Source: Oscillospiraceae bacterium (GTDB lineage Bacteria > Bacillota > Clostridia > Oscillospirales > Acutalibacteraceae). Taken from it: a DNA stretch of 64,000 bases. Both the position numbers and the translations under genes were made by a program. Below are positions 14,731 through 22,173 of the stretch, piece after piece; the first letter of the stretch is position 1, and every line of letters begins with the position of its first letter. The stretch is taken from the NCBI GenBank assembly GCA_910574935.1, contig CAJTCU010000001.1:545695-609694 (forward strand), given 5' to 3'. The notes beneath the pieces are model-generated. The model saw only the letters and a list, made by a program, of their open reading frames with translations, made no database searches and was not told the origin of the DNA.

Positions 14731-15380
14731 TGATTACGGCCTCTCCTCTTGGGGGCCTGTCCGCTTACTTTCCGCTCTTCTAAAAATCTCGCTTCGCTGG
14801 TTTTACAATATTTTTGGGGCGGCTGATTACGGCCTCTCCTCTTGGGGGCCTGTCTGCTTACTTTCCGCTCTTCTAAAAATCTCGCTTCGCTGGTTTTACA
14901 ATATTTTTTGGGCGGCTGATTACGGCCTCTCCTCTTGGGGGCCTGTCCGCTTACTTTCCGCTCTTCTAAAAATCTCGCTTCGCTGGTTTTACAATATTTT
15001 TGGGGCGGCTGATAAGGGCCTCTCCTCTTGGGGGCCTGTCCGCTTACTTTCCTCTCTTCTAAAAATCTCGCTTCGCTGGTTTTACAATATTTTTTGGGCG
15101 GCTGATAAGGGCCTCTCCTCTTGGGGGCCTGTCTGCTTACTTTCCGCTCTTCTAAAAATCTCGCTTCGCTGGTTTTACAATATTTTTTGGCGGCTGATTA
15201 CGGCCTCTCCTCTTGGGGGCCTGTCTGCTTACTTTCCGCTCTTCTAAAAATCTCGCTTCGCTGGTTTTACAATATTTTTTGGGCGGCTGATTACGGCCTC
15301 TCCTCTTGGGGGCCTGTCTGCTTACTTTCCGCTCTTGTAAAAATCTCGCTTCGCTGATTTTTACAATTTGCTGGCTAGCT
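14731..15380 (+). repeat. Seven tandem copies of a 93-bp repeat
   Basis: Units begin with TGATTACGGCCTCTCC or TGATAAGGGCCTCTCC at 14731, 14824, 14917, 15010, 15103, 15195 and 15288, a period of 93 (one 92). Copies differ at only a few bases (TTAC/TAAG, CCGC/CTGC, T-run length); the last degenerates after 15345. Each has TCTCGCTTCGCTGG followed by TTTTACAATATTTTT. Reading frames exist through parts of it, but T-run length changes break them. Confidence 0.92.
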
Positions 15381-17479: not shown

Positions 17480-17495
17480 ACACAAGATATAGTGC
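17480..17495 (+). promoter_or_regulatory. Possible NrdR box before nrdD
   Basis: ACACAAGATATAGTGC resembles the NrdR operator consensus (ACAC, central ATAT, GTG) and lies 20 bases upstream of the -35 element of nrdD. NrdR sites normally come in pairs; I do not see a clear second one. Confidence 0.45.
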
Positions 17496-17514: not shown

Positions 17515-17543
17515 TTGACAGCCCGGCGCTTTTGTCTTATAAT
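17515..17543 (+). promoter_or_regulatory. Promoter of nrdD
   Basis: Perfect TTGACA (17515-17520), 17-base spacer, perfect TATAAT (17538-17543). The leader of about 118 bases contains C/G-rich hairpins. Confidence 0.88.
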
Positions 17544-17667: not shown

Positions 17668-19965
17668 ATGCCAAAGATCATTGTCAAACGCAACGGCCAA
17701 GAGGTCAAATTCGACGCCACCAAAATTCGCAACGCCATCTTCAAGGCCAACGTCCGCCTGGCCGCCGAACGCTTTACCGAAGCCGACCTGGACCAGCTGA
17801 CCGCCCAGGTGGTGGCAGAGCTGGAAAAAATGAAGGAAACCCCCACCGTAGAGCGCACCCAGGATATTGTGGAGGAAAAGCTCATCGCCGCCGGGTACGC
17901 CAAAACCGCCAAGGCCTATATTCTCTACCGGGCCCAGCACCAGCGCCTGCGGGAAATGGACGACGAGCTGGTGAAAATCTACTCGGCCCTCACCTTTGTC
18001 CCCGCCGAGGACGTGGACCTAAAGCGGGAAAACGCCAATATTAACGCGGACACCGCCATGGGTACCATGCTGAAGTATGGGTCCGAGGGAGCCAAGAGCT
18101 TTTATGACAAGTACGTCATCCCCCCCCACCTGACCAAAGCCGACGAGGAGGGGGACATCCACATTCATGACAAGGATTTCTACACCCTTACCGAGACCTG
18201 CTGCCAGATTGACCTGATCAAGCTGTTCAAAAACGGGTTCTCCACTGGCCACGGCTACCTGCGGGAGCCAAAGGACATCCGCAGCTACGCGGCCCTGGCC
18301 TGCATTGCCATTCAGGCCAACCAAAACGAGATGCACGGGGGCCAGAGCGTGCCCATCTTCGACTACTCCATGGCCCTGGGGGTGGACGCCACCTATCACA
18401 AGGAGTATTTTAAGGCCCTCACCCAGTTCTTTCAGCTTATGAAGGTAATGCCCCACGGCCAGGCCGAGGCCATGGTAGAGGCCGCCCGGGTGGCCCTGCA
18501 CAGCAAGGTCACTATGAAGAACGTGGACCAGTATGCAGAGCGCTTTGCCAAATTCCTGCCCAAGCACCAGAAAGACAGCGGCTTTGAAGAGGTCACCTGG
18601 GAGGAGGCCAGCGACGCCGCGGCCTATGCCAAAGAGACCGCCTGGCGGGAGACGGACAAGGCCACCTATCAGGCCATGGAGGCCCTGGTGCACAACCTGA
18701 ACACCATGAACTCCCGGGCAGGGGCCCAGGTGCCCTTCTCCTCTCTGAACTACGGCACCGACACCAGCGAGCAGGGCCGCATGGTCATCCGCAACCTGCT
18801 GCTGGCCACCGAGGCCGGCCTGGGAGACGGGGAGACGCCCATCTTCCCGGTGCAGATCTTCAAGGTAAAGGAAGGGGTCAACTATAGCGAGGGCGACCCC
18901 AACTACGACCTGTTCAAACTGGCCATGCGGGTCTCCGCCAAGCGGCTGTTTCCCAACTTCAGCTTTATTGACGCGCCCTTTAACCTGCAATACTACAAGG
19001 CCGGGGACTACGACACCGAGGTGGCCTATATGGGCTGCCGCACCCGGGTGATGGGCAATGTCCACGACCCAGACCGCCAGACCACCTGCGGCCGGGGCAA
19101 CCTAAGCTTTACCTCTGTCAACCTGCCCCGCATCGGCATTGAGGCCAAGGGGGACGTGAAAAAGTTCTACACCATCCTGGATGAGCGCATCGCTATGTGC
19201 GTAGAGCAGCTTTTGCACCGCTTCAAAATTCAGTGCAGCAAAAAAGCCTATAACTACCCCTTCCTTATGGGGCAGGGGGTGTGGATTGACTCGGAGAAGC
19301 TGGACCGCAACGACTCCGTGGCCGAAGTCTTAAAGCACGGCACCCTCTCGGTGGGCTTCATCGGCCTGGCCGAGACCCTAAAGGCCCTTACTGGCAAGCA
19401 CCACGGGGAAAGCGAGGAGAGCTACAAGCTGGGGCTGGAGATCATCACCTATATGCGCAAAAAGATGGACGGCCTCTCGAAAGAGACGGGGCTGAACTTC
19501 ACCCTGCTGGCCACCCCGGGCGAAGGGCTTTCCGGCACCTTTACCCGCATTGACAAAAAGAAGTTTGGGATCATCCCCGGGGTCACGGACCGGGATTACT
19601 ACACCAACTCCTTCCACATTCCCGTGTACTATCCCATCAGCGCCTTTGAGAAAATCCAGAAAGAGGCCCCTTTCCACGCCCTGACCAACGCGGGGCACAT
19701 CAGCTATGTGGAGCTGGACGGGGACGTCTGCAAGAATATCGACGCCTTTGAGAGCGTGATCCGCTGCATGAAAGAGGCCGGGGTGGGCTACGGCTCGGTG
19801 AACCACCCGGTGGACCGGGACCCGGTTTGCGGGTATAACGGCATCATCGATGAGGTCTGCCCCCGGTGCGGCCGCCACGCGGGAGAGGGCGTGCCCCTGG
19901 AGAAGCTGGAGGAACTGCGGAAAAAGTACCACGACGTACCGGACTATTCCAGCCTTATCAGCTAA
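17668..19965 (+). CDS. nrdD: Anaerobic ribonucleoside-triphosphate reductase, large part lacking the glycyl-radical segment
   Basis: Class III reductase converting NTPs to dNTPs without oxygen. An ATP-cone (residues about 3-95, beginning KIIVKRNGQEVKF) precedes the ten-stranded barrel. Active-site cysteines are expected in TETCCQIDL (178/179) and MGCRTRV (457). Two things are odd. The zinc ribbon, normally four Cys, has D718, C721, C731 and C734. The chain then ends 31 residues after C734 without the RxxGYL glycyl-radical loop that closes other NrdD proteins. That loop is encoded separately at 20174-20362. 765 residues. The promoter at 17515 and a possible NrdR box lie upstream. Confidence 0.9.
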   Translation: MPKIIVKRNGQEVKFDATKIRNAIFKANVRLAAERFTEADLDQLTAQVVAELEKMKETPTVERTQDIVEEKLIAAGYAKTAKAYILYRAQHQRLREMDDELVKIYSALTFVPAEDVDLKRENANINADTAMGTMLKYGSEGAKSFYDKYVIPPHLTKADEEGDIHIHDKDFYTLTETCCQIDLIKLFKNGFSTGHGYLREPKDIRSYAALACIAIQANQNEMHGGQSVPIFDYSMALGVDATYHKEYFKALTQFFQLMKVMPHGQAEAMVEAARVALHSKVTMKNVDQYAERFAKFLPKHQKDSGFEEVTWEEASDAAAYAKETAWRETDKATYQAMEALVHNLNTMNSRAGAQVPFSSLNYGTDTSEQGRMVIRNLLLATEAGLGDGETPIFPVQIFKVKEGVNYSEGDPNYDLFKLAMRVSAKRLFPNFSFIDAPFNLQYYKAGDYDTEVAYMGCRTRVMGNVHDPDRQTTCGRGNLSFTSVNLPRIGIEAKGDVKKFYTILDERIAMCVEQLLHRFKIQCSKKAYNYPFLMGQGVWIDSEKLDRNDSVAEVLKHGTLSVGFIGLAETLKALTGKHHGESEESYKLGLEIITYMRKKMDGLSKETGLNFTLLATPGEGLSGTFTRIDKKKFGIIPGVTDRDYYTNSFHIPVYYPISAFEKIQKEAPFHALTNAGHISYVELDGDVCKNIDAFESVIRCMKEAGVGYGSVNHPVDRDPVCGYNGIIDEVCPRCGRHAGEGVPLEKLEELRKKYHDVPDYSSLIS

Positions 19966-20121
19966 AAATAGAGGGAATGAGGTCTTTTGGCCCAAAAGCG
20001 GTGAATTGCAAGGAGAAAGCCGCGGGCTGTACCGCCAGCGAGGGGGGCTGACCCCGAAAGAGTCCGCTTTCTTGGTAAAAAGGCGGCGCTTGTGATTGTT
20101 CCAACAAGTTCTAATACCCCT
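19966..20121. other. Spacer between the two NrdD parts
   Basis: 156 bases from the nrdD stop to the next promoter. It includes a short hairpin GGGGGGCTGACCCC at about 20044. No reading frame joins the two proteins, so a simple frameshift does not explain the split. Confidence 0.5.
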
Positions 20122-20150
20122 TTGACAAAATCTTATATTTTTGATATAAT
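20122..20150 (+). promoter_or_regulatory. Strong promoter of the glycyl-radical small protein and surE
   Basis: Perfect TTGACA (20122-20127), 17-base spacer, perfect TATAAT (20145-20150), ending 23 bases before the small gene, with AAGGAGG in between. Confidence 0.9.
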
Positions 20151-20173
20151 TTACTTATAAGGAGGAACCAACT

Positions 20174-20362
20174 ATGTCTAACACTTCTAAGAAAAACGCC
20201 ATGATTTCCGGCACGGATCAAATCACTGTGGGCGAGGGCCGCGACTTCGAGCGCATTCGCCGCATTACCGGCTACCTGGTGGGCACCACGGACCGCTGGA
20301 ACAACGCCAAACGCGCCGAGGAGCGGGACCGGGTAAAGCACTCCCTGGCCAGCCGGGGTTAA
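20174..20362 (+). CDS. Stand-alone glycyl-radical domain of anaerobic ribonucleotide reductase
   Basis: 62 residues. The second half, RIRRITGYLVGTTDRWNNAK then RAEERDRVKH, matches the C-terminal glycyl-radical tail of NrdD proteins; Gly 33 would carry the radical. The first 22 residues are polar and unfamiliar. AAGGAGG ends nine bases before the ATG, and the gene has its own consensus promoter. By analogy with YfiD/GrcA, the detachable radical domain of pyruvate formate-lyase, I infer that it docks on the truncated NrdD encoded upstream and is activated by NrdG (21670-22173). The GYL motif points to NrdD rather than formate-lyase (GYA). It could be essential here, not a spare part, because the large protein has no copy. 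Confidence 0.82.
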   Translation: MSNTSKKNAMISGTDQITVGEGRDFERIRRITGYLVGTTDRWNNAKRAEERDRVKHSLASRG

Positions 20363-21152: not shown

Positions 21153-21618
21153 GCAACGTGACGTTGCATCCAATGTCGCGGGGGCGTTCGCTTGGGCTCA
21201 CTTGCCGGTGTTAGCTTCTGGCCCAGCCAGCGCGGACAGGGGCCGAAGGAGTGGGGCCCGTATTGGCTAAAGAGATACATAAAGAAAGGCCCATGCCGGG
21301 AGCGTCACGCTGCCCGGGAGTTTCCAGAGGAACGCGCTGGCTATGCTAACGGTTTACACCTGCGAGTGAGCCAGGGCGAACGACTCCGCGACTAAAGGTG
21401 CAGCGCTTGCGCTGCCCGGGAGTTTCCAGAGGAACGCGCTGGCTATGCTAACGGTTTACACCTGCGAGTGAGCCAGGGCGAACGACTCCGCGACTAAAGG
21501 TGCAGCGCTTGCGCTGCCCGGGAGTTTCCAGAGGAACGCGCTGGCTATGCTAACGGTTTACACTGACGAGGGCGCAGCTTTGCCCGACTCCGCGACATTG
21601 GATGCAACGTCACGTTGC
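21153..21618. repeat. Repeat island: perfect 29-bp inverted ends around 102-bp tandem repeats
   Basis: Positions 21153-21181 and 21590-21618 are perfect inverted copies (each holds the palindrome GCAACGTGACGTTGC). Between them a 102-bp unit with TGCCCGGGAGTTTCC recurs at 21311, 21413 and 21515, the last diverging near its end. The left part (about 21181-21240) is a diverged inverted copy of the same unit (GGCTCACT, GTTAGC, CCAGCCAGCGCG). Each unit carries GCAGCGCTTGCGCTGC. No gene is evident. Confidence 0.88.
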
Positions 21619-21669
21619 CCGCGACATTGGGTGCAGCGCTTGCGCTGCTGCGCTGTGGAAAGGATGTTT

Positions 21670-22173
21670 ATGACTCTTCAAGTGGCAGGTATTGTAAAGG
21701 AATCGATTGTGGATGGCCCTGGTATACGTTATGCGGTGTTTGTCCAGGGCTGCCCGCACCATTGCCCTGGATGCCATAACCCCCAGTCTCTGCCCTTTCA
21801 AGGGGGGCGCGAGATGGACACCCAGGACATTTTTGCCCAGTTTCAAGGGAATCCCATCCTAAAGGGTATCACCCTTAGCGGGGGCGAACCCTTTTGCCAG
21901 CCAGAGCCCCTGGCCCACCTGGCCCGGCTGGTGCACGGCACGGGCAAAGACGTGGTGGTGTACACAGGCTATACCTATGAGGAGCTGCTGGACCTGCCCA
22001 GCCCTGGGGTAAAGGCCCTGCTGGACGAAACCGACCTGCTGGTGGACGGCCCCTTTATAGAGGCAAAGCGCAATTTGGAGCTTTCTTTTCGCGGCAGCGA
22101 AAACCAACGGCTGATCGACCTAAAAAGGACCCGGACCAGTGGCCAGGTGGCGCTGTGGGAGCCCATACATTGA
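21670..22173 (+). CDS. nrdG: Anaerobic ribonucleotide reductase activating protein (radical SAM)
   Basis: Radical-SAM enzyme that abstracts hydrogen from the NrdD glycine. The 4Fe-4S cluster motif CPHHCPGC (CX3CX2C) is near residues 28-35, followed by the SAM-binding TLSGGEPF. 167 residues, typical. The ATG at 21670 has GGAAAGG six bases upstream; the open frame further upstream runs into the repeat island. Its substrate here should be the separate glycyl-radical protein at 20174-20362. Confidence 0.94.
   Translation: MTLQVAGIVKESIVDGPGIRYAVFVQGCPHHCPGCHNPQSLPFQGGREMDTQDIFAQFQGNPILKGITLSGGEPFCQPEPLAHLARLVHGTGKDVVVYTGYTYEELLDLPSPGVKALLDETDLLVDGPFIEAKRNLELSFRGSENQRLIDLKRTRTSGQVALWEPIH

Follow-up and report, generated by a model that had tools for sequence, protein, structure and literature searches.

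The window analysed here, a 64,000-nucleotide stretch of an Oscillospiraceae bacterium genome (contig CAJTCU010000001.1), encodes a class III ribonucleotide reductase, NrdD, whose catalytic body and glycyl-radical domain lie in two separate genes. These are two open reading frames (ORFs) of the + strand, in different frames and 208 bases apart, one of 765 codons (17668-19965) and one of 62 codons (20174-20362). We hold it highly probable that the two genes specify one class III ribonucleotide reductase in two chains, in which the small protein would be the radical domain activated by NrdG, inserting its loop beside Cys457 of the body and being replaceable after oxygen damage. This reading is drawn from the two proteins being complementary halves of one Pfam and NCBIfam model; the body matches positions 1-530 of 562 of Pfam NRDD PF13597 (627.6 bits) and 3-711 of 746 of NCBIfam PRK07111 (1062.8 bits), and the small protein covers the missing 531-562 of PF13597 (35 bits, cut-off 26.2) and positions 707-744 of PRK07111. 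On sequence grounds, the split NrdD is real and conserved, and functionally it makes a compelling variant of a known enzyme. The features of the locus are as follows.

17480..17495, + strand: NrdR-box-like sequence upstream of the body promoter, with 3 mismatches to the consensus
17515..17543, + strand: promoter-like site (sigma-70 type) belonging to the body, with all 12 consensus bases matched
17668..19965, + strand: nrdD body, 765 amino acids, with ATP-cone, catalytic barrel and zinc ribbon and without the glycyl-radical loop (PF13597, PF03477, PRK07111)
19036..19038, + strand: codon of the body's Cys457 (motif MGCRTRV), which is predicted to carry the thiyl radical (aligned with 8p23)
19828..19872, + strand: zinc-ribbon cysteines CGYNG...CPRCG of the body; the break falls after the ribbon (from the sequence)
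19966..20173, + strand: intergenic region of 208 bases, containing the second promoter (from the sequence)
20122..20150, + strand: promoter-like site (sigma-70 type) belonging to the small gene, with all 12 consensus bases matched and TG before the -10
20159..20166, + strand: ribosome-binding site AAGGAGGA ahead of the small gene's ATG (from the sequence)
20174..20362, + strand: small glycyl-radical protein, 62 amino acids, with the loop FERIRRITGYLVGTTDRWNNAKRAEERDRVKH (PF13597 and alignment A1)
20270..20272, + strand: codon of Gly33, predicted radical glycine of the small protein, its counterpart in Prevotella copri NrdD being Gly711 (from aligning 8p23 with stand-alone proteins; numbering of PMC11226230)
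20396..21136, + strand: surE, 5'/3'-nucleotidase, between the small gene and nrdG; a neighbour, not a core part (TIGR00087, 176.7 bits)
21547..22173, + strand: nrdG, radical S-adenosylmethionine (SAM) activase; longest ORF, with the true start likely near 21664-21670 (TIGR02491, 141.6 bits, residues 46-193)

The body carries an ATP-cone (PF03477, 73.2 bits), Cys178, the NxN flap N122-A-N124, the zinc ribbon CGY...CPRCG and, in MGCRTRV, Cys457, at the position of the established thiyl-radical cysteine of NrdD. No radical glycine loop was found on the body chain, which stops at profile position 530 of 562; the last ribbon cysteine is Cys734 and the chain ends at residue 765. A six-frame motif scan of the 64 kb found the GYL loop motif in the small ORF only. 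The small protein is conserved in alignment A1 of 20 stand-alone proteins, and its only match besides PF13597 is a weak one to LPD23 (E 0.12), with none to PF01228, the glycine-radical domain of the type found in pyruvate formate-lyase (PFL). Promoter-like sites number 5 in the region against a mean of 1.0 in shuffles, and no NrdR-box-like sequence was seen upstream of the small gene at the threshold used for the body site. These results bear out the first-pass annotation of this DNA, which had described a 765-residue NrdD ending without a loop 31 residues past its zinc ribbon, a 62-residue gene 208 bases downstream that carries the loop behind its own promoter and ribosome site, and the residue numbers Cys178, Cys457 and Gly33.

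In the alignment with 8p23, Gly711 and Tyr712 of P. copri NrdD (PcNrdD) correspond to Gly33 and Tyr34 of the small protein and Arg719 to its Arg41, and the PcNrdD NxN flap and Glu581 correspond to N122-A-N124 and E619 of the body. By this mapping, which is our own, the residues named in the P. copri structure paper (PMC11226230) are distributed over two chains. Arg719, which is described there as bonding the NxN flap, has Arg or Lys as its equivalent in 158 of the 165 loops matched.

Conservation of the split layout

Frequencies are drawn only from a family sample of 200 genomes, own genome included, of which 195 match NRDD, and from a class-wide sample of 393 genomes. Stand-alone loops were sought with profile A1, built from the same 20 proteins, and the short stand-alone form is called type A. 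A type A gene occurs in 34 of the 200 family genomes, and inspection of all 34 found a loopless body adjoining it in 33; the exception, G184, has the two genes at the ends of two separate contigs (L044, L263). Conversely, loopless bodies were counted in 19 genomes among the matches listed (the total is at least 19), and all 19 fetched carry a stand-alone loop gene, 18 of type A and one (G090) of a longer type B, which confirms that the split parts co-occur. Body, small gene and nrdG-like gene are contiguous in L236-L240, L244, L255 and L256, the nrdG-like genes of relatives being named by eye from their radical-SAM cysteines, and two small genes stand in tandem in G171. The linker from ribbon to loop measures 7-9 residues in fused relatives (48 of 51 fused genes scorable), and split bodies end 15-52 residues after the ribbon, with a median of 29 (85 scored).

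The small gene is under purifying selection: the pooled ratio of nonsynonymous to synonymous polymorphism (pN/pS) of type A is 0.16 over 7 pairs, single pairs of types A and B ranging from 0 to 0.46. This selection, together with the conserved place beside a loopless body, makes the gene more than a product of chance. The loop glycine and tyrosine are kept in all stand-alone proteins scored from genome contigs (74/74), viruses (69/69) and the family (19/19), and in 3 of 5 from other records, the remaining 2 being decayed. A single genome taken by itself would look like decay, with a broken nrdD and a downstream ORF as its remnant (or like an error), and in G090 a loop does appear to have decayed in place. 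However, the same layout recurs in dozens of species with own start codons, purifying selection acts on the small gene, and we could find no second reductase in 8 of the 19 loopless-body genomes, so that decay or error deserves hardly any credence.

Could frameshifting, stop-codon readthrough or splicing make one chain of the two ORFs? Introns and inteins are known in phage nrdD (PMC3653736), and 27 of 81 body/small pairs (some genomes counted twice) share a frame. Yet the frames of these pairs are spread as 27/31/23 with a median start gap of 30 nucleotides, which indicates separate translation; frameshifting and readthrough were rejected on these counts, and a sequencing error at the join of the two parts, raised in the first-pass annotation, is very unlikely on the same evidence. 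Moreover, the small gene has its own ribosome-binding site and ATG and a full promoter-like site in the 208-base gap, and the G090 loop gene lies on another contig. No splicing element was seen in the 208-base gap, nor any frame rule over the 81 pairs, although no intron model search was run. Joining of the two ORFs is, in our judgement, scarcely tenable, and we keep to two chains.

The split is also found well beyond the family. Among named genomes, the best 80 of 577 confirmed matches to A1, hence biased to the split form, comprise 62 split pairs, 6 fused genes and 12 stand-alone genes without an adjoining body at the locus, 3 of these 12 being close to a contig edge. Split pairs occur in records of Oscillospiraceae/Acutalibacteraceae (Massiliimalia timonensis, Scatolibacter rhodanostii) and Butyricicoccus, and also of Lachnospiraceae, Bacilli, Selenomonadaceae (Anaerovibrio slackiae) and Desulfovibrionaceae, many of the records being metagenome bins. 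In the class-wide sample at least 10 genomes have type A and at least 16 the longer stand-alone form. A 17th by ORF length, G449, was dropped as a ribbon and loop fragment; this short ORF (L253:3061-3345) has a zinc ribbon and loop without a catalytic body and lies directly upstream of an nrdG-like ORF. A tree of 132 bodies, computed by a quick method on body columns only (long rows L036, L057 and L059 dropped, five long rows kept), needs 9 changes between split and fused, 7 of them forced by well-supported branches, from which we conclude that the loop has been detached and/or rejoined repeatedly, as far as such a tree can tell. The body of the window falls in a clade made up of split forms alone, together with records of Neglecta/Neglectibacter, Acutalibacter and Scatolibacter.

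Proposed mechanism and other reductases

The genome of the window is 4.17 Mb in 109 contigs, 99.97% complete and 2.39% contaminated. It has three NRDD matches, since contig C10 adds a second stand-alone loop gene to the body and the small gene. No full-length NrdD, the counter-case raised in the first-pass annotation, was found in it, and there was no match to the large-subunit barrel of class I/II reductases (PF02867), nor homology to the B12-dependent NrdJ; the PF02867 search was positive in 11 of 14 control genomes. As no class I/II reductase was found, the radical must come from the small protein or its C10 copy, provided that deoxynucleotides are made de novo in the cell. It had been claimed that the detached domain is not a spare part but the only radical carrier. 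This stands in so far as the genome lacks an NrdD with its own loop and a class I/II reductase, but the second loop gene on C10 takes away its exclusiveness; more widely, a spare-part-like type B exists for NrdD in relatives, and the split enzyme is not the only reductase in some of them. Expression of the small protein may set the radical dose, as the first-pass annotation suggested; body and small gene each have a promoter-like site of their own here.

A role of the small protein as a regulator or a decoy for NrdG, rather than as the catalytic radical carrier, would fit the separate promoter-like sites and the extra copies in some genomes. On the other hand, without the small protein and leaving the C10 copy aside, no loop would be left in the genome for the body, and every intact stand-alone protein scored retains the Gly-Tyr of the loop, which makes such a role very unlikely.

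For the two-chain reductase, we infer docking, radical transfer and exchange of the small protein along the following lines. The body would supply ATP-cone, zinc ribbon and the barrel in which Cys457 lies, and the 62-residue protein would be the glycyl-radical domain. NrdG, which is encoded near the body (TIGR02491), would take a hydrogen from Gly33 of the small protein, whose loop would then enter the barrel beside Cys457, giving the thiyl radical with which reduction starts. Most probably the small protein is a cartridge that docks on the body and can be exchanged; when the radical is installed, the domain is stated to flip out of the core (Sci. Adv. 2025, PMC12662201), and a domain on a separate chain could achieve this by binding and release. 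Class III enzymes are cut by oxygen at their glycyl radical (PMC3019208), and thus the damage would land on a cheap and replaceable 62-residue cartridge and the 765-residue body would be spared. A radical supplied in trans has a precedent in Escherichia coli, where PflB G734A together with GrcA still makes formate (PMC12338860).

Several observations set limits to this interpretation. In an AlphaFold2 model of the G171 read-through of body and small part (alignment A4) the body is good, yet the small part is of low confidence, with a block predicted local distance difference test (pLDDT) of 39-77 and of 51 at the radical glycine, so that the model speaks neither for nor against docking; the top Foldseek hit of this model, 8p23_B, says only that the body is NrdD. 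Moreover, 3 of the 19 loopless-body genomes (G114, G198, G049) have a class I/II-type reductase matching PF02867, and 5 (G002, G034, G122, G124 and G196, the last from the same genus as the window) possess a full-length NrdD as well, covering model positions 1-562. These five full-length proteins belong to another subfamily, to judge from profile A1 not reaching them; the one read (L036) ends CGYIGTQFWNQGRT... In addition, G069 and G171 hold a full-length NrdD paralog with Ser at the radical position, and G184 has a partial second NrdD match (model positions 6-502). In the other 8 (G000, G112, G073, G119, G194, G110, G038, G090) we found no reductase besides the loopless body. The split enzyme is therefore the sole reductase in some species, that of the window included, and not in all.

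The Ser paralogs merit a remark of their own. At L268:1971-4394 (G069) and L269:1538-3868 (G171) the loop reads RRITSYLAGP, there are further changes at the first active-site Cys and in the NxN flap, and the same genomes hold a split NrdD. Seryl-radical enzymes are known for other glycyl-radical enzymes, NrdD not being among them in the accessible text of PMC11528403.

Stand-alone radical domains in relatives and mobile elements

Type B proteins are of about 97 residues, with a conserved N-terminal domain (xTVxGGxLSxxEIxxY...DGDYVxLxY) ahead of the same loop. They were counted in 24 family genomes by ORF length, 11 of the sequences being read; a 25th candidate, G099, is a piece of a fused gene at a contig edge and was not counted. 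A full-length NrdD accompanies type B in 22 of the 24, the other two being G195 (89% complete), which shows no NrdD body, and G090. None of the 11 type B loci read has an NrdD body, some of them being cut by contig ends; in G095 the type B and NrdD genes are about 5 kb apart (locus not read), and five further genomes (L248-L252) have the order full-length nrdD, type B, nrdG-like gene. The pooled pN/pS of type B is 0.19 over 4 pairs. AlphaFold2 gives its N-terminal beta-alpha-beta-beta block a pLDDT of 76-83 and its loop one below 60, and a search of solved structures returned NrdD (8p23) and one chance-level hit. Type B accompanies intact NrdD much as a spare part of the GrcA kind would.

It may then be asked whether the small protein of the window is itself such a spare part, which acts like GrcA/YfiD and rescues an NrdD that normally has its own loop. 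The company that type B keeps with full-length NrdD, the five genomes with type B between intact nrdD and an nrdG-like gene, the five split relatives that also hold a full-length NrdD of another subfamily and the GrcA precedent (PMC8683613, PMC12338860) all speak for it. However, the window's genome, as searched, showed no loop-bearing NrdD that could be rescued, and its small protein is of the short type A, which as a rule adjoins a loopless body. We regard a spare part as unlikely here and retain the two-chain enzyme.

G090 shows another arrangement. Its NrdD ends in CPQCGRKECEREEHSERIKRLI at the stop codon, which we read from the sequence as a putative decayed loop, and an nrdG-like ORF follows. 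No class I/II reductase and no other NrdD body were found in this genome, and the type B gene, on a separate contig (L233), has the only NrdD-type loop found. For these reasons a type B protein seems able to serve as sole radical carrier.

Loops without an adjoining body are found in viral contigs as well. The best 80 of 401 confirmed viral loci, several near-identical, comprise 11 fused, 3 split and 66 stand-alone without an adjoining body; of the 66, 51 have more than 3 kb of upstream sequence and no body in the locus, 12 have at most 3 kb upstream, and 3 have a body elsewhere in the locus. A PHROGs scan of ten proteins from seven of these loci, the others being viral according to the IMG/VR classification, recovered endolysin/amidase (L163, L168, L175), a tail protein (L175), DNA methyltransferases (L157, L202) and, in L192, NrdG beside a body and loop gene; three proteins, one each from L163, L168 and L154, match only families of unknown function. 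L192 (2987-6136) and L196 (265-2389) are viral contigs with a loopless body and a type B-like loop gene, followed in L192 by NrdG. In Eggerthella phage EL753P1 (L060:1647-5081), NrdD has an intein-like insert after MGC and no loop, and a separate small loop ORF downstream is unannotated and interrupted within the loop. The retention of loop glycine and tyrosine in all viral stand-alone proteins scored argues against their being poisons. Decayed loops were seen in two Subdoligranulum plasmid records (L062, L063).

Mobile carriers are likewise met in bacterial genomes. The second loop gene of the window's genome (L034:8516-8674, 53 amino acids) lies upstream of a D12 adenine methylase, and because contig C10 also encodes two serine recombinases, NikA/MobC, TrbL and a TraG-like ATPase, we read the gene as part of a putative integrated conjugative element. 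This element (L245-L247) encodes in addition a large adhesin-like protein with T-Q ester/SpaA domains. G198 has two extra type A genes, one of them (L235) beside a D12 methylase and an amidase.

It is probable that the stand-alone radical domains form a wider system, spread over relatives and mobile elements. Perhaps the glycyl radical of the class III reductase is an exchangeable cartridge shared by hosts and mobile elements, an idea to which we give an even chance: hosts would swap damaged cartridges, phages and conjugative elements would bring their own to keep or take over the host's supply of DNA precursors during replication, and G090 would be a natural case of a spare part turned sole carrier.

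Near-identical direct repeats were also noticed in the window by eye, no repeat search being run: at 21310-21540, between surE and nrdG, and, in the form of a repeated ORF, at 15121-15357, upstream of an aspartyl-tRNA-synthetase-like ORF.

Comparison with known systems

The radical domain of NrdD has so far been treated as integral to the chain, and a domain in trans makes several questions testable: whether NrdG acts on a docked or a free domain, whether dATP inhibits through the glycyl-radical domain, on which the structures of PcNrdD and of Streptococcus thermophilus NrdD (StNrdD) disagree (PMC11226230, PMC12662201), and whether spare parts exist for glycyl-radical enzymes beyond PFL, as raised in PMC8683613. 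If our reading is true, a 62-residue protein would be necessary for de novo deoxynucleotide synthesis in anaerobes like the window's host, and phages and conjugative elements might use a small gene to influence the nucleotide metabolism of their hosts. Databases probably list the small proteins as NrdD, since they fall under existing NrdD models. In line with the first-pass annotation, which knew of no split NrdD, we found no account of an NrdD whose radical domain sits on a different chain in the accessible full-text literature searched, which included PMC9669993, PMC9531940, PMC3653736, PMC8683613, PMC11226230, PMC11528403, PMC12662201, PMC2795772, PMC3019208, PMC12338860 and PMC4520616; subscription journals lie mostly outside this scope and may hold such a report.

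With the class III NrdD of Prevotella copri (8p23), Streptococcus thermophilus and phage T4, the split enzyme shares the ATP-cone, the barrel, the active-site cysteines, the NxN flap, the zinc ribbon, the NrdG activase and the loop RITGYL-G-DRW-N. The difference is that in those enzymes the loop is on the same chain, whereas here it has a protein to itself, the body chain stopping after the ribbon. GrcA/YfiD and T4 Y06I, the autonomous glycyl-radical cofactors of PFL, are alike in being small stand-alone glycyl-radical domains; only YfiD and Y06I have been validated as spare parts, others being speculated, according to the available text of PMC8683613. In contrast to GrcA/YfiD, the loop here is of the NrdD type (PF13597) and not of the PFL type (PF01228), the gene lies beside nrdD, and the partner body is naturally without a loop of its own; a host enzyme with its own loop is absent from the window's genome as searched and is seen beside type B in 22 of 24 relatives. 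The split class II NrdJa/NrdJb of Pseudomonas aeruginosa, which PMC4520616 (2015) calls the only split reductase in a non-viral organism, is likewise a reductase cut at a fixed place into two genes of one operon, but NrdJb does disulfide exchange in a B12 enzyme, whereas here the detached part would carry the radical itself. Finally, phage nrdD genes interrupted by introns, inteins or homing genes are also nrdD in pieces (PMC3653736); the break described here differs from them in falling at a domain border, between separate genes that are under selection in bacterial chromosomes.

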